Source: Actinomyces sp. (GTDB lineage Bacteria > Actinomycetota > Actinomycetes > Actinomycetales > Actinomycetaceae). From it: a DNA stretch of 38,411 bases. Under the pieces are notes generated by a model that was given only the letters and a program-made list of their open reading frames with translations, had not been told where the DNA came from and made no database searches. A program made the translations under genes and the position numbers. Shown here one piece after another: positions 14,169 to 20,228 of this stretch (position 1 is its first letter; each line of letters begins with the position of its first letter). The stretch covers positions 1-38,411 of the forward strand of contig JALCNR010000020.1 of NCBI GenBank assembly GCA_022649165.1. Direction: 5' to 3'.

Positions 14169-14618
14169 TCAGGCGGCGAGGGCGTGGCGACGGGTGCGCA
14201 CGACGCGCACCCCGGGGGCGGAGTTGAAGCGGTAGCCCTCTCCGCGCACCGTGGTCAGCAGATCGGCGACGTCGAGCTTGCGGCGCAGGCGGCGGATATG
14301 GGCGTCGACGGTGCGGGACTCCGCGTCCAGCCCGCGGTCGCGCCACACCGTGGAGAACAGCTCCTCACGGGACACCGTGCGGTCGGCGTTGCGGGCCAGG
14401 TGCGCCAGGAGCGCGAACTCCTGCCGGGTCAGGTCCACGAGGCGGCGGTCGATCCGCACCGTGTTCTCGTCCAGGTTCACGGTCACCGCATTGGAGAGAC
14501 GGAGGTTGTCCAGGACGGCGAGGAAGTCGTCCAGGGAGTCTGCGGCCTCCGATGTGGGGGCCGCCGGAGGGCGGGATGTGCCGGAGACGGGACGGGCAGG
14601 GGTGTCAACGAGAGCCAT
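14169..14618 (-). CDS. Orphan OmpR/PhoB-type winged-helix regulator (no receiver domain)
   Basis: About 149 aa. Residues ~40-135 are a complete OmpR-type effector domain: NLDENTVRIDRRLVDLTRQE, FALLAHLARNADRTVSREEL, FSTVWRDRGLDAESRTVDAH, IRRLRRKLDVADLLTTVRGE, GYRF. No phosphoacceptor receiver domain is present, so control is not by a cognate kinase. The start is uncertain: ATG at 14618 or GTG at 14651; neither has a clear SD. It follows metE on the same strand, separated by a Met/Cys-rich mini-ORF and a strong inverted repeat. That context suggests a regulator of sulfur amino-acid genes (inference). Confidence 0.8.
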   Translation of the reverse strand: MALVDTPARPVSGTSRPPAAPTSEAADSLDDFLAVLDNLRLSNAVTVNLDENTVRIDRRLVDLTRQEFALLAHLARNADRTVSREELFSTVWRDRGLDAESRTVDAHIRRLRRKLDVADLLTTVRGEGYRFNSAPGVRVVRTRRHALAA

Positions 14619-14681
14619 GTGAGTATCCGATGTGTCGGGCCGCGCACCCACTCGTCATGGTGGGCTCACTCAGGCGGCAGT

Positions 14682-14708
14682 CTGATTGGGGTCTGGGTTT
14701 CCAATCAG
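14682..14708 (-). promoter_or_regulatory. Perfect 8-bp inverted repeat at the stop of the Met/Cys mini-ORF
   Basis: CTGATTGG (14682-14689) and CCAATCAG (14701-14708) are perfect inverted repeats around an 11-nt spacer. On the transcribed (minus) strand the 5' arm contains the TGA stop of the mini-ORF 14705-14752. No U-tract follows, so this is more likely an attenuator/anti-attenuator stem or an operator than a classic terminator. Confidence 0.55.
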
Positions 14709-14752
14709 CGGCACATTCGCGCACACATGCCACCCATGGGGCGGCATGTCAT
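14705..14752 (-). CDS. Candidate Met/Cys-rich leader peptide upstream of the winged-helix gene
   Basis: Fifteen codons, MTCRPMGGMCARMCR, then TGA: four Met and three Cys. It starts 14 nt after the metE stop without an obvious SD, so reinitiation or coupling is possible. Its final codons CGA ATG TGC CGC TGA match those of the mini-ORF before metF (CGA ATG TGC GCC TGA). It also contains an inverted repeat (ACATGCC 14725-14731 against GGCATGT 14743-14749), and CATG palindromes by themselves create ATG triplets, so some of the Met richness could be incidental. Its function as an attenuator is inference. Confidence 0.45.
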   Translation of the reverse strand: MTCRPMGGMCARMCR

Positions 14753-14766
14753 CAGCGCGAAATCAC

Positions 14767-17196
14767 TCACAGGTCAATGCTCCCCGCCGGCCGGACCCCG
14801 GTCAACGTCTGGTCCGCATCGTGGGACTGCGTGAACGCAGGCCTGCGGGCAGCGGCGGCGCCGATCCGCTCCCGCACCGTGCGGGCCGCCTGCACCAGGT
14901 TGCGCAGGGTCGCCTCCGTCTCCGGGTAGGCGCGGGTCTTCAGACCGCAATCCGGGTTCACCCACAGCTGGTGGACGGGCACGGTGCGCGCAGCCGCCCC
15001 GATGAGGCCTGCGAGCTCCTCGGCGGACGGCACGCGCGGGGAGTGGATGTCCCACACGCCCGGCCCGATCCCTCGGGCGAACCCGTGTGAGGCCAGCTCG
15101 GGGAGGACCTCCATCCGCGAGCGCGCCGCCTCGATGGACGTGACGTCGGCGTCCAGGCCCGCGATCGCGTCGAGGATCTGCCCGAACTCGGAGTAGCACA
15201 GGTGCGTGTGGATCTGCGTGTCGGGCCGAACGCCCGCCGTGGCCGCGCGGAAGGCGCCGACGGCCCAGGCCAGGTAGTCGGCGTGACGCGACGCCTCCAG
15301 GGGGAGGAGCTCGCGCAGAGCCGGCTCATCCACCTGGATGACGGGTGTGCCCGCGTCCTCCAGGTCGGCGACCTCGTCGCGCAGCGCCAGCGCGATCTGG
15401 TCGCCGACCTCGGACAACGGGATGTCCTCGCGGGGGAAAGACCAGGCGATGATCGTGACCGGGCCGGTCAGCATCCCCTTGACGGGGCGGGCGGTGAGCG
15501 ACTGGGCGTAGGCGGTCCATGGCACCGTGATCGGCTCCGGCCGCCAGACGTCGCCCCACAGGATCGAGGGGCGGGTGCACCGCGAGCCGTAGGACTGCAC
15601 CCAGCCCTCCCGGGTGACGGCGAATCCGGCGAGTTGCTCGGCGAAGTACTGGACCATGTCGTTGCGCTCCGGCTCGCCGTGGACGAGGACGTCGAGGCCG
15701 ATCTCCTCCTGGAGGGCAATGACGCGGGCCACCTCCGCCTTGATGCGCGACTCATAGGCGGCATCGTCGAGCTCGCCGCGGGCGTGGGCGGCGCGCGCCC
15801 GGCGGATGTCGGCGGTCTGCGGAAAGGATCCGATGGTGGTGGTGGGCAGGTCCGGCAGTCCCAGCCGCCGCGCCTGGGCCGCCTCGCGCACCGGGTAGCC
15901 GACGCGAGTGCGATCCGCCTCCGTGAGCGAGGCGACGCGGGTGCGGACGGCAGGCACGCACACCCCGGGGGCCTCGGCCCGCTCGGCCAGGACCTTCTGC
16001 GAGCGGGCGATCTCGGAGGCGATCGCGCCGCGTCCGGCTCGCAGTCCGCGCGCCAGCGTGGTGACCTCCCCCACCTTCTGGTCGGCGAAGGCCAGCCAGT
16101 CGTGCAGCGCCGTGTCGAGGACCGGGTCCTCCCAGTGCTCCAGCGCGGTGTCGTGGGGGACGTGCTGCAGCGAGGTCGAGGTCGCCACGGCCGTGCCCGA
16201 CGCCCCTGATGACTCCGCCACCCGCCGGAGCGCCTCCAGGCGGTCCGCCGCCTCCGCGAGATCTGCGGCCCAGATGTTGCGCCCGTCGACGACGCCGCCG
16301 ACCAGGGTGGTGCCCGCGAGCGCGCGCGGTCCGGGCGCCTCGGGCACCCCCGCTCGCACGAGGTCCAGGTGGATCGCCTCCACCCCGGCCGCCGCCAGGG
16401 CGGGCAGGGCCGCTGCGCCGTCCCCGTAGGGCGTGGTGACCAGCAGCGCGGGCCGGGGCCCGGCGTCGGGGGCGGCGAGCCGCCGGTAGGCCCGACCCGC
16501 GGCCTCGATCAGGAGGCCGCGCGGCGTCGGCAGGTTGTCCGAGACCAGCGCCGGTTCGTCGAGTTGCGCCCAGGGCGCGCCGGCCTCGGCCAGGAGGGCG
16601 AGCGCCGCCCGGTAGGCGGCGACGACCTCGTCGAGACGCTCCAACGGCGACCATCCCTCCGGGGACCCGTCGGCGGCCTTGGCCAGGGCGAGGAGCGTGA
16701 CGGGCCCGACCAGCACGGGGCGCGTGGTGACTCCCCATCCGAGCGCCTGCGCGAAACGGTCGACCACCGTGCGGTCCGTGAGGCGGATCGGAGTGTCCGG
16801 ACCGATCTCGGGGACGAGATAGTGGTAGTTCGTGTCGAACCACTTCGTCATCTCCAGCGGCGCCACCGTCGCGTCGCCGCGGGCCAGCGCGAAGTGGAGG
16901 TCGAGGCCCTCCCGGCCGGCGAAACGCTGGGGAACGGCGCCGATGAGGGAGATCGCGTCGAGCACCTGGTCATAGAGGGCGAAGGTCTCCGGGATGGAGG
17001 CGTCGTCGCGCCCCAGGCCCAACTCGATGAGCCGTTCGTGGGTGGCGTGGCGCAGTTCGGCCTCCGCGGCGTGGAGCCCGTCCGCGTCCAGCCGCCCGGC
17101 CCAGTGGGCCTCCACCGCCCGTTTGAGTTCGCGTCCGCGTCCGATGCGCGGGTAGCCCAGGATCGTCGCGGCGGGGAAGGGTGTGGTCGTGGTCAT
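14767..17196 (-). CDS. metE: Cobalamin-independent methionine synthase
   Basis: 809 aa; transfers the methyl group of 5-methyltetrahydropteroyl-tri-L-glutamate to homocysteine, making methionine. The start is the ATG at 17196 with AAGGAC upstream; the conserved N-terminus is ILGYPRIGRGRELKRAVEAH. N-terminal barrel: EMTKWFDTNYHYLVPE. C-terminal catalytic barrel: TTTIGSFPQTADIRRAR, VLVHGEPERNDMVQYFAEQL, GSRCTRPSILWGDV, GPVTIIAWSF and IQVDEPALRE. Zinc/homocysteine ligands are visible in IHTHLCYSEF (His, Cys) and NPDCGLKTR (Cys), as the family requires. It lies 62 bp downstream of metF, which makes its methyl donor, so metF-metE is an operon. Confidence 0.96.
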   Translation of the reverse strand: MTTTTPFPAATILGYPRIGRGRELKRAVEAHWAGRLDADGLHAAEAELRHATHERLIELGLGRDDASIPETFALYDQVLDAISLIGAVPQRFAGREGLDLHFALARGDATVAPLEMTKWFDTNYHYLVPEIGPDTPIRLTDRTVVDRFAQALGWGVTTRPVLVGPVTLLALAKAADGSPEGWSPLERLDEVVAAYRAALALLAEAGAPWAQLDEPALVSDNLPTPRGLLIEAAGRAYRRLAAPDAGPRPALLVTTPYGDGAAALPALAAAGVEAIHLDLVRAGVPEAPGPRALAGTTLVGGVVDGRNIWAADLAEAADRLEALRRVAESSGASGTAVATSTSLQHVPHDTALEHWEDPVLDTALHDWLAFADQKVGEVTTLARGLRAGRGAIASEIARSQKVLAERAEAPGVCVPAVRTRVASLTEADRTRVGYPVREAAQARRLGLPDLPTTTIGSFPQTADIRRARAAHARGELDDAAYESRIKAEVARVIALQEEIGLDVLVHGEPERNDMVQYFAEQLAGFAVTREGWVQSYGSRCTRPSILWGDVWRPEPITVPWTAYAQSLTARPVKGMLTGPVTIIAWSFPREDIPLSEVGDQIALALRDEVADLEDAGTPVIQVDEPALRELLPLEASRHADYLAWAVGAFRAATAGVRPDTQIHTHLCYSEFGQILDAIAGLDADVTSIEAARSRMEVLPELASHGFARGIGPGVWDIHSPRVPSAEELAGLIGAAARTVPVHQLWVNPDCGLKTRAYPETEATLRNLVQAARTVRERIGAAAARRPAFTQSHDADQTLTGVRPAGSIDL

Positions 17197-17258
17197 CGTG
17201 GTTGTCCTTGCGTGGTCGGTGGTGCGGGCGGGGGGACGAGGGCGCAGCGGCGGCACGC

Positions 17259-18188
17259 TCATGGAACCGGGTCGAGCAGCCCCAGCCGTTCGAGGAGGAG
17301 CAGCGAGGGTTCGGCCTTGTTGAAGGTGTAGAGATGGAGGCCCGGCGCTCCGCCGTCCAGGATGCCGCCCGCCAGGCGGGCGCCCTCGTCGACGCCGAGG
17401 CGCAGGGCGTCGGTCCCCTCGGCGGCGGAGAGGGCGTCGAGGAGGGCGCGCGGGGCCTCGATGCCAGTGAGGTCCTGGGTTCGGCGCAGGCGGGAGGGAT
17501 CGGTGGGCGGGAGCAGACCCGCCACGATCGGGATGGTGACGCCGCTGGCGCGGGCCCGGTCGACGAAGGAGAGGTAGGTGTCGGCCTCCCAGAAGAGCTG
17601 GGTGATGGCGAAGCTGGCACCGGCCGCCTGCTTGACGAGGAGCCGCTCGACCTCCTGGTCGGCGGTGGTGCCGGCTGCCGGATTCCCGGCGGGGAACGTG
17701 GCGACGGCGATGGTGAGCGGGCGGACGGCGGCGCGCAGGGCCGCACCGGGGTGCTCCTCGCAGCGGCGACGCTCGAGACGGCGGATGAGGGTGACGAGTT
17801 CCGTGGCGCTCGCGACCTCGCCGGAGGCGGGCCTCCAGTGGGGGTCCCCTGCCGGCGGGTCGCCGCGCAGCGCGAGGAATGCGCGCACTCCGGCGTCCAG
17901 GTAGTCGGAGACCACCCGGGCGATCTCGCCTGGCGACGTCCCCACGCAGGTCAGGTGCGCGATGGGCGGGACGGGCGTGGAGGTGACGAGTTCGGAGACG
18001 ACGCTGCGCGCGCTCGCGCGGTCGCGGCCGGCCGCGCCGTATGTGACGGACATGAAGTCGGGGCGCGCGGCCACGAGGCGGCCGACGGTCGCCCAGAACC
18101 TCGGGGCGGCGTCGGGGTGGCGCGGGGGCATGACCTCGAAGGAGACGGTGGTGGGCTCGTGCCCACGGGTACAGTGCGCGTTGGTCAT
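17259..18188 (-). CDS. metF: 5,10-Methylenetetrahydrofolate reductase
   Basis: 309 aa from the ATG at 18188 (a start 12 codons earlier is open but outside family homology; neither has a strong SD). Flavoprotein TIM barrel: TVSFEVMPPRHPDA at the start, PDFMSVTYGAAGRDR, PIAHLTCVGTSPGEI, AFLALRGDPPAG (FAD/folate loop), FAITQLFWEADTYLSFVDRA, and PIVAGLLPPTD. It reduces 5,10-methylene-THF to 5-methyl-THF, the substrate of MetE encoded next. Relatively compact and N-terminally divergent compared with E. coli MetF. A Met/Cys-ending mini-ORF (18262-18333) lies 73 nt upstream and may control both genes. Confidence 0.93.
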   Translation of the reverse strand: MTNAHCTRGHEPTTVSFEVMPPRHPDAAPRFWATVGRLVAARPDFMSVTYGAAGRDRASARSVVSELVTSTPVPPIAHLTCVGTSPGEIARVVSDYLDAGVRAFLALRGDPPAGDPHWRPASGEVASATELVTLIRRLERRRCEEHPGAALRAAVRPLTIAVATFPAGNPAAGTTADQEVERLLVKQAAGASFAITQLFWEADTYLSFVDRARASGVTIPIVAGLLPPTDPSRLRRTQDLTGIEAPRALLDALSAAEGTDALRLGVDEGARLAGGILDGGAPGLHLYTFNKAEPSLLLLERLGLLDPVP

Positions 18189-18261
18189 GGGGTGTCCGAT
18201 GTGCGGGGCCGGGCGCGCGAACACCGTGCAGACCGGCCGAAGGACGGGGGGAAGAGGATCC

Positions 18262-18333
18262 TCAGGCGCACATTCGCATTCGCACGCGCACGTCGCCGCG
18301 CACAGCGGCGGTGGGGGCGGTGCGAGCGGTCAT
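18262..18333 (-). CDS. Candidate Met/Cys leader peptide upstream of metF-metE
   Basis: Twenty-three codons from ATG 18333 to TGA 18262. The first half is Ala/Thr-rich (MTARTAPTAAVRG), the end is RVRMRMCA. The last codons are GTG CGA ATG CGA ATG TGC GCC TGA: two Met and one Cys flanked by the rare Arg codon CGA, directly before the stop. CACCAT then 6 nt then ATG resembles a leaderless promoter-start arrangement (CANNNT, weak). The stop runs into the palindrome GAGGATCCTC. The 10-mer GCGAATGTGC recurs exactly, in the same reading frame, at the end of the mini-ORF after metE. A Met- or Cys-responsive attenuator is inferred. Confidence 0.5.
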   Translation of the reverse strand: MTARTAPTAAVRGDVRVRMRMCA

Positions 18334-18481
18334 GGGCCAATGGTGGACGACGGCCGCTGCGCCCGGCAGGGGTGTCCACCAGATGGGACCATGTAACGTC
18401 GTGAGGGAGGACTCGCCCGGTTGGGGCGCGCCGGGCAGCCGGGATATCCTTGTTCCCGGTCCGGACGCATGTCCGTTCCGC

Positions 18482-18957: not shown

Positions 18958-20228
18958 TTAGGCGGTGAGTTCGAGGTCGGGGTCGGTGCTCGCCTCGCTT
19001 CCGGTGTCGGGGATGAGGGTGAGTTGGCTCTTGGCGAGGATGTCGAGGCTGGGGTATCGGCGGCCCTCGGCCCATTCGTTGGTCTGCTCGGCGAGGGCGG
19101 CGCCGATGAGGCGGGTGATCGCGTCGCGGTTGGGAAAGATGCCGACTGAGTCCGTGCGGCGGCGGATCTCCCGGTTCAGTCTCTCGTTGGGGTGGGGGTA
19201 CCTCCCGCTTGCGGGGGAGTGGACCAGATCTGCTGCCAGAGGCCTTCGGGGAACCCGGTGAACGCGAGGATGTCCGCGCGGGCGGTGTCGAGGTGGTCGT
19301 GCGCGTCGGGGAGTTTCTGGTCGACGTAGTCCAGGAGCCGGTCGAACTGGGCGTTCACGCTCTTCGCGTCGGGTTGGTCGTAGACAGAGTGCAGCATCGC
19401 CTTCTCCGCCGGCCACATGGCCTTCGGGGTTACCGACATCAGGTTCGCTGCGTAGTGGGTGCGGCAGTGTTGCCAGACCGCTCCGGGCAGGTTCGCTGCG
19501 ATGGCCTCCACCAGGCCCTGGTGGGCGTCGCTGGTGACCAGGCGCACCCCGTCCAGGCCGCGGGCGACGAGGTCGGCGAAGAAGGAGTTCCAGGCCGGGC
19601 CGGTCTCGCTGGTCGCGACCCGCAGGCCGAGGACTTCGCGGCGTCCGTCGCGTTCACGCCGGTCGCGACCAGCACGACCGCGTTGATCACACGGCCGCCT
19701 TCGCGGACCTTCATCGTCAGCGCGTCGGTGGCCACGAAGGCGAACGGGCCCGCGTCGCCGAGGGGCCGGTGGCGGAACTCCTCGACGTGCTCATCGAGCC
19801 CGGCCGACATCCGGGAGACCTGCGACTTCGACAGCGAGTGGATCCCGAGGGTCTTGACGAGCTTGCCCATCCGGCGGGTCGAGACCCCGGCGAGGTAGCA
19901 GTCCGCGACGACCGTGATCAACGCGGTCTCGGCCCGCTTGCGGCGCTCCAGCAGTCACTCCGGGAAGGTAGGTGCCCTGCCGCAGCTTCGGGATCGCGAC
20001 GTCGATCGTCCCGACCCGGGTATCCAGGTCGCGGTGTCGGTACCCGTTGCGCTGCGCCACCCGGTCCGGGGACGCCTGCCCCCATTCGGCGCCGGCCACG
20101 GCGTCCGCGTCGGCGGACAGCGGCGAGTTGATCATGGTCTGCAGCAACTGCCGCATCAGATCCGGCGACGAGTCAGCGAGGACTTCACCGAGCAAGCGGG
20201 CAGGGTCGACAATATGAGGTGCGGTCAT
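18958..20228 (-). pseudogene. IS256-family transposase with three frame breaks
   Basis: Nearly full-length but split into four frames. The N-terminus starts at ATG 20228 (MTAPHIVDPARLLGEVLADS, NGYRHRDLDTRVGTIDVAIP). A break near 19960 is followed by ITVVADCYLAGVSTRRMGKL, IHSLSKSQVSRMSAGLDEHV and FVATDALTMKVREG (catalytic D). A break near 19650 is followed by GVRLVTSDAHQGLVEAIAAN (catalytic D). A third break is at the palindromic insert 19193-19220, then PNERLNREIRRRTDSVGIFP (catalytic E) and a C-terminus ending PDLELTA at a TAA (18958-18960). All DDE residues persist, but no single product can be made without frameshifting. Confidence 0.88.
19193..19220. repeat. Palindromic mini-insert, copy B
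   Basis: On the transposase strand CTCCCCCGCAAGCGGG then AGGTACCCCC separates WS from PNERLNRE, replacing the expected S-T-N-P codons. It is the same sequence as copy A (5994-6018) apart from A/C and a 2-nt AG difference, at the equivalent site of a different IS256-family transposase. Confidence 0.7.

Follow-up and report, generated by a model that had tools for sequence, protein, structure and literature searches.

Why do two very short open reading frames (ORFs) with the same ending lie beside the methionine genes of an Actinomyces genome, one before the first of these genes and one after the last? The window analysed here, 38,411 nucleotides of contig JALCNR010000020.1, carries on its minus strand, in this order, metF (5,10-methylenetetrahydrofolate reductase, 17259-18188; PF02219 above cut-off, TIGR00676 at 212 bits and thus below its 294-bit cut-off), metE (cobalamin-independent methionine synthase, 14767-17196; PF01717 and PF08267, with NF003556 above cut-off) and a gene for a stand-alone OmpR-type winged-helix protein of 149 amino acids (14169-14618; PF00486). 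Ahead of metF lies an ORF of 23 codons with an ATG start (18262-18333, minus strand; peptide MTARTAPTAAVRGDVRVRMRMCA), which ends R-M-R-M-C-A-stop, its last codons being CGA ATG TGC GCC TGA (R-M-C-A-stop, 18262-18276); the second ORF, ahead of the winged-helix gene, ends A-R-M-C-R-stop with the codons CGA ATG TGC CGC TGA (R-M-C-R-stop, 14705-14719, minus strand). From leader stop to gene ATG the distance is 73 nt for metF (ATG at 18188) and 86 nt for the winged-helix gene (ATG at 14618).

The preliminary description of this DNA had placed both ORFs on the minus strand with these endings, and we find them there, at 18262-18333 and, as then delimited, at 14705-14752 (peptide MTCRPMGGMCARMCR). 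It had also pointed to a 10-mer common to both in the same frame. The pattern CGAATGTGCNNNTGA has two matches in the whole genome of 2,796,595 bases, both of them the window mini-ORFs, against none for the reversed control, and where the window has two occurrences, 100 shuffles give 0.00 on average. The winged-helix leader, described as 15 codons long, stands as an ORF but not in its ATG start at 14752: the start is probably a GTG at 14770, since the relatives L062-L065 have GTG starts and are equal in length to the resulting peptide of 21 codons, VSDFALMTCRPMGGMCARMCR (14705-14770, minus strand). This probable GTG overlaps the stop codon of metE (GTGA, 14767-14770), so that coupling of the winged-helix leader to metE translation is possible. 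The position of the winged-helix gene after metE, together with the shared leader, suggests that its product may be a sulfur regulator. Searches of Pfam and NCBIfam gave no match for the metF leader of the window and the leaders of three relatives, the 15-residue window leader being too short for such a search. The same genome has three matches to TIGR01326, yet no third CGAATGTGCNNNTGA site.

Within the genus, a wider pattern, CGAATGTGYNNNTGA, is present in all 35 genomes, with 81 sites against one for the reversed control. Counting identical sequences once leaves 76 distinct sites, some of which were not fetched apart; the winged-helix gene follows 31 of them, metF 14, metY 8, and metX and a cystine-type solute-binding protein one each, such that 55 of the 76 stand before the winged-helix gene or a gene for methionine or sulfur and 21 do not. 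The metX (L034) scores above its NCBIfam cut-off and the metY (L037) above the TIGR01326 one; the cystine-family cut-off is not reached by the binding protein (L111). The preliminary description had proposed a comparison of the regions upstream of orthologous genes, and in that comparison the ending is largely kept. Orthologues of the winged-helix gene were detected in 33 of the 35 genomes (E<=1e-25), and in all 33 an R-M-C-X-stop ORF lies 83-125 nt upstream of the start codon (examples are MTTFANPMCCPCGGMMSRMCM, MTAFEMRMCRPMCGSMCSRMCM and MTFNATMTCRPMCGSMCSRMCM, each followed by a stop). metF was detected in 23 of the 35 (E<=1e-40), with an R-M-C-X-stop leader in 16. The other seven metF leaders comprise four that end R-M-R-X-stop (L335, L339, L341 and L350, in which Arg replaces Cys but CGA ATG is kept at an unchanged distance from the stop), one that ends R-M-P-R-stop, one in which R-M-C-S is followed by two additional codons and one that is unreadable. 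With Cys exchanged for Arg in four leaders and for Pro in one, Met is the more constant of the two before metF; the proposal of a Met/Cys leader family before methionine genes is supported in its conservation, including members before metX and metY, and not in the constancy of Cys, which five metF leaders lack. In one genome (L099, G165), two tandem R-M-C-M-stop leaders, at 581 and 780 and hence 199 nt apart, precede a single winged-helix gene.

Members of the family are also found outside the genus, where we searched 213 genomes of the family with CGAATGTGYNNNTGA and 297 genomes of the order with CGNCGNATGTGYNNNTGA. In the former search 119 of the 213 genomes had a match, and 50 sites outside the genus were read (30 as listed and 20 picked for repeated letters, together a part of all matches): 14 lie before metY, one before metF (L163) and the others before no recognised methionine gene. 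From the order search 70 loci were read, 30 as listed and 40 picked mostly for repeated letters, again a part of all matches. The metY leaders have 7-9 codons and occur in six families of the order (f1, f8, f9, f12, f13 and f20), with the peptides MFRRMCR, MFLRRMCR, MSRRMCR, MTRRMCR, MQTRRMCR, MLCNRRMCR and MSRRMCT, each followed by a stop. In family f19, two Arthrobacter records and a single uncultured Micrococcales bin, winged-helix relatives are preceded by leaders whose last residues before the stop read CCRMC[RA], MRRMCA or CMRMCR. At the level of the class, 17 of 296 genomes matched, namely the window, nine from f19 and seven that seem incidental; an ORF of winged-helix type lies behind eight of the nine f19 matches (Pfam was used to check one), and the ninth is cut short by the end of its contig.

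Surveys that started from the genes give a measure of how far the leaders reach. Among winged-helix relatives in other genera (L167-L226 without L187, 59 loci, 10 of them with no start), the RMC ending was found in L169 and L189 alone of the 49 read; L185 came up in another scan, over L165-L227. A pattern-free survey of metY, which found the gene in 107 of 119 genomes and took the best-scoring 30 loci, eight of them unreadable by motif, recovered the RMC ending in only four of 22 readable loci (L362, L363, L372 and L373, the latter two doubtful); the metY leader is accordingly clade-bound. In family f9, the leader is present in each of the four genomes sampled that carry metY; of four genomes without metY three lack the site and one has a different site. 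A further leader-like ORF, ending SSVDVSSMCRCLCRMCR and a stop, occurs in two genomes of g22 (L149 at 487, L154 at 521) with no recognised gene directly behind it, and is perhaps another sulfur leader.

Several signals point to translation of these ORFs from a start at the very 5' end of the message. Although the scan did not require one, an in-frame ATG stands 3-5 codons before the Arg of RMC in all 53 distinct metY sites, and of the ATGs in the 30 nt upstream of the metY-leader motif 57 share its frame and 9 do not. A -10 box 6-8 nt before a start codon is, by the usual rule, the mark of a leaderless mRNA. TANNNT occurs at that spacing before the ATG in 45 of the 53 metY leaders, against two matches over 26 more distant positions (0.08 per position), so that by this rule most metY leaders would begin leaderless mRNAs. 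The boxes before the genus leaders were read by eye and are weak in the window: a -10-like CACCAT (18340-18345, minus strand) stands 6 nt before the ATG of the metF leader, which fits the boxes before the leaders of relatives and suggests a leaderless start, and the winged-helix leader has a candidate leaderless promoter, TTGACC, 17 nt and a weak -10 element GAGCAT (14777-14805, minus strand), which ends 6 nt short of the probable GTG start. A consensus scan gave no sigma-70 site at either of these two candidates.

The composition of the leaders is consistent with coding, and the pattern of substitutions lends coding no support. Among 24 distinct winged-helix leaders (of 33, identical sequences counted once), Met and Cys make up 103 of 391 codons of the leader body in frame (26%), against 49 of 367 (13%) and 19 of 367 (5%) in the other two frames. 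In the third-position test of the same leaders there is no excess of silent changes (pN/pS 0.81-0.90), and the rate of difference is 0.36 at position 3 against 0.41 and 0.40 at positions 1 and 2. The codons at the ending are fixed in part. Arg is encoded by CGA in 53 of 53 metY leaders, some of which came from a search pattern that itself prescribes CGA; where the base was left free, CGA is found in all 10 metY sites among 30 loci. At X, where the residue varies across leaders (R, M, I, S, A, N, F, T), 47 of the 53 metY leaders have CGC. The winged-helix, metF and metY leaders alike are small ORFs that contain end-product codons and keep a steady position ahead of their genes, one of the features of leader-peptide attenuators of amino-acid genes.

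The region between the winged-helix leader and its gene contains conserved helices, as seen in an alignment of 28 distinct 5' regions (of 33, identical sequences counted once). Helix P1 is a hairpin that includes the leader stop codon (14682-14708, minus strand; arms 14701-14708 and 14682-14689), with 95.9% of cells paired and three pairs doubly changed; P2 (14639-14675, minus strand) holds an inner hairpin (14660-14665 with 14646-14651), with 79.1% of cells paired and three pairs doubly changed; and P3 (14627-14638, minus strand), CCGA-CACA-TCGG, lies 8 nt before the start codon, with 91.0% of cells paired. The arms of P3 read CCGA/TCGG, CCGT/ACGG and CCAAA/TTTGG in relatives, and in P1 UUGAC/GUCAA is changed to UCGAC/GUCGA and UCAAC/GUUGA. 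Taken together, P1-P3 have 88.6% of cells paired, compared with 12-39% when the helices are slid. Doubly changed cells number 30 where shuffles have 8.8, and the covariation score is 0.182 where they have 0.098, figures that overstate independence as the sequences are related; the further pair types, 15 against 15.9, are not above the shuffles. CACATCG before the winged-helix start of the window was considered as a complement of the leader and dropped, being the loop and one arm of P3.

In the window, the winged-helix 5' region folds at -73.1 kcal/mol (z -3.63) into P1, P2, P3 and a long-range helix, P0, whose 3' strand (14619-14625, minus strand) adjoins the winged-helix ATG and whose partner (14764-14770) is formed by the first codons of the leader. 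Pairing between leader and start region exceeds that of shuffled leaders in 23 of the 28 winged-helix regions (base-pair probabilities; Wilcoxon p 0.0004, uncorrected for kinship and likewise overstating independence). The leader bases that pair most strongly belong to AUGUGUAU, the Met-Cys-X codons, in 18 of the 28, where they face AUACAC or a similar sequence ahead of the start; in five (the window and L062-L065), GUGAG at the leader start pairs with CUCAC; and the remaining five have mixed or no leader partner. A double change in this pairing, GUGCAU with AUGCAC, is found in L072. When the winged-helix leader is masked in folding, the openness of the start region rises by more than 0.05 in 20-22 of the 28 and falls in 1-2; masking of the metY leader gives no consistent opening of the start (7-11 up and 5-6 down of 53). 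The RRMC codons of metY leaders pair with GCACGTTCGGC just after the stop, by 9-12 bp in 28 of 41 regions, the other 13 being without the pairing; the 12 genus loci, in which the post-stop region differs, are excluded from this count. The metF region of the window folds no better than shuffles (z -0.75).

We hypothesize that the mini-ORFs are conserved leaderless leader peptides that report the supply of Met, and usually also of Cys, to the genes behind them. The reading of these leaders as attenuators, to which as a whole we give a probability of roughly two in three, starts from the observed conservation, place, frame, promoter spacing and helices of the leader family. Transcription would begin at or next to the leader start codon, as the -10 boxes indicate, and a 70S ribosome would initiate there and travel to Arg(CGA)-Met-Cys-X-stop. 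If Met- or Cys-tRNA were scarce, it would wait on those codons, and they or their neighbours appear to form one side of an RNA pairing: for most winged-helix mRNAs in the genus the predicted partner is the stretch immediately ahead of the start codon (P0), with the stop codon held in P1, and for most of the metY mRNAs examined it is the segment just after the stop. The waiting ribosome would cover the pairing strand, the start region would open and the gene would be translated; with Met and Cys plentiful, the ribosome would leave, the pairing would close and output would fall. We are less sure of this direction, and of control at the level of translation, than of the attenuator reading itself. 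In the window and in L062-L065, P0 uses the first codons of the leader, such that a ribosome waiting on R-M-C would not directly cover P0; in this clade a queued or starting ribosome at the leader start would have to act on P0. More tentatively, at rather less than even odds, the leaders may constitute an attenuator class in which the sensing codons, R-M-C(-X), double as the antisense strand that shuts the winged-helix start region or folds with the metY post-stop segment, a class that would span six families and several methionine genes, include ORFs of 7 codons on leaderless mRNA, and extend to the pathway's own regulator.

The same leaders might instead act on transcription, through a terminator or Rho. 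This possibility, which we think doubtful though well short of negligible, overlaps the attenuator reading, as the latter leaves the level of control open. The metY spacers, at roughly 125-310 nt, offer enough room for it, and in many metY regions a CGTGCGC-like segment further downstream complements GCGCACG after the stop (seen by eye and uncounted). No intrinsic terminator-like site, however, lies in 14600-18450 of the window, the one sequence scanned for such sites, and in the winged-helix regions the pairing partner adjoins the start codon.

An arrest peptide is unlikely, yet accounts for part of the evidence. TnaC arrests the ribosome at its stop codon with Trp, and nascent R-M-C-X might similarly halt translation at the stop codon, either alone or with bound Met, Cys or S-adenosylmethionine, in which case codon supply would not be the signal. 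The motif is short and stands one codon before the stop in all 33 winged-helix leaders, it is kept in 7-codon ORFs with a single internal Met and a single Cys (MFRRMCR and stop), and the constant CGA of the metY leaders would suit a peptide that arrests the ribosome. Peptides of 7 codons, however, barely enter the ribosome exit tunnel, X varies throughout and Cys varies in the metF leaders; moreover, the CGA, the CGC and the fixed spacing can also be accounted for by RNA pairing, the fixed CGA and CGC codons of the metY leaders being explained by pairing with the post-stop segment.

It is about as improbable that the conserved element is an RNA or a protein-binding site with no need of translation, the ORF being incidental. 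Nucleotides are kept beyond what the peptide demands (CGA, and CGC at X), the helices carry compensatory changes, and the third-position test is negative, as such an element would have it. Against it stand the in-frame starts in 53 of 53 metY sites, with the nearest ATG 3, 4 or 5 whole codons away, the promoter spacing of leaderless messages and a Met/Cys excess confined to the reading frame. A riboswitch for S-adenosylmethionine, or another Rfam riboswitch, was considered and dropped, tRNA being the only Rfam family to match at gathering score in the window and 19 loci. The negative third-position test has a parallel among known leaders, as PMC9094748 describes mycobacterial Cys regulatory short ORFs that as a group fail a codon-bias test unless their Cys codons are removed. 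Chance we dismiss, even though two short motifs can coincide in one window and 21 of the 76 genus sites look incidental, given that both genome sites of CGAATGTGCNNNTGA fall at these two loci, that genus matches outnumber the reversed control 81 to 1 and that all 33 winged-helix orthologues have the leader.

Classical attenuators such as trpL, hisL and ilvL combine a leader ORF rich in end-product codons with competing helices. The present leaders share the end-product codons and the competing RNA helices, but differ in that no intrinsic terminator was found in the window, in being very short and in that the sensing codons are themselves the pairing strand in many members. The nearest described case is metL of Streptomyces lividans TK24, according to PMC8079986 a leaderless leader peptide of 29 codons before metNIQ that ends RCMCRRMCAF-stop and has no typical intrinsic terminator. 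Like the present leaders, metL is leaderless, precedes methionine genes and has R-R-M-C near its end; unlike them, it has two codons rather than one from Cys to stop, a different target and a length of 29 codons, and it is described from one species. The window leaders have M-R-M-C and A-R-M-C in place of the R-R-M-C of metL, which is found in 52 of 53 metY leaders. Two patterns built on the end of metL, R-R-M-C-A-F-TGA and M-C-R-R-M-C-A, match one and none of 296 class genomes, so that the likeness may be one of ending without common descent.

The polycysteine attenuators of mycobacteria (Canestrari et al. 2020, as presented in PMC9031893 and PMC9094748) are likewise leaderless short ORFs whose codons signal an amino acid to downstream genes, with contiguous Cys codons; the present leaders mostly have a single Cys near the stop together with Met, and methionine genes behind. 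Contiguous Cys codons near the stop are absent from the window and metY leaders, while some relatives have CC further up. The Cys leader peptides that PMC1262725 predicts for Mycobacterium, Propionibacterium and Bifidobacterium resemble ours as short ORFs before sulfur amino acid genes with no conserved terminator hairpin, and differ in their runs of Cys codons near the stop. That survey of Actinobacteria, by its own account, detected no RNA structure conserved ahead of methionine operons, a gap that a widespread Met/Cys leader family, if true, would fill. Among the matches listed in the open-licence PMC literature (subscription papers are mostly outside it), no title or abstract names an R-M-C-X-stop family. 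R-M-C-X-stop leaders occur before methionine genes in many actinobacteria and probably let the cell sense a shortage of Met or Cys through a slowed ribosome. If so, the leader would be a marker for genes of the methionine pathway and their regulator, and the 7-codon leaders would be minimal objects with which to study how a leaderless ribosome senses one or two codons.

Further upstream, a loose motif, GTTACA, GTCACA or a near form, is found in 12 of 14 metF and 15 of 26 winged-helix upstream regions; it lies at 18392-18397 (minus strand) in the window and 89-131 nt before R-M-C in relatives, often at -115 to -117, and the window's own winged-helix upstream region has no site of this type. The element is possibly an activator site, perhaps for the winged-helix protein. 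Several overlapping ORFs at 18958-20228 of the window (minus strand) resemble what we take to be pieces of an IS256-type transposase.
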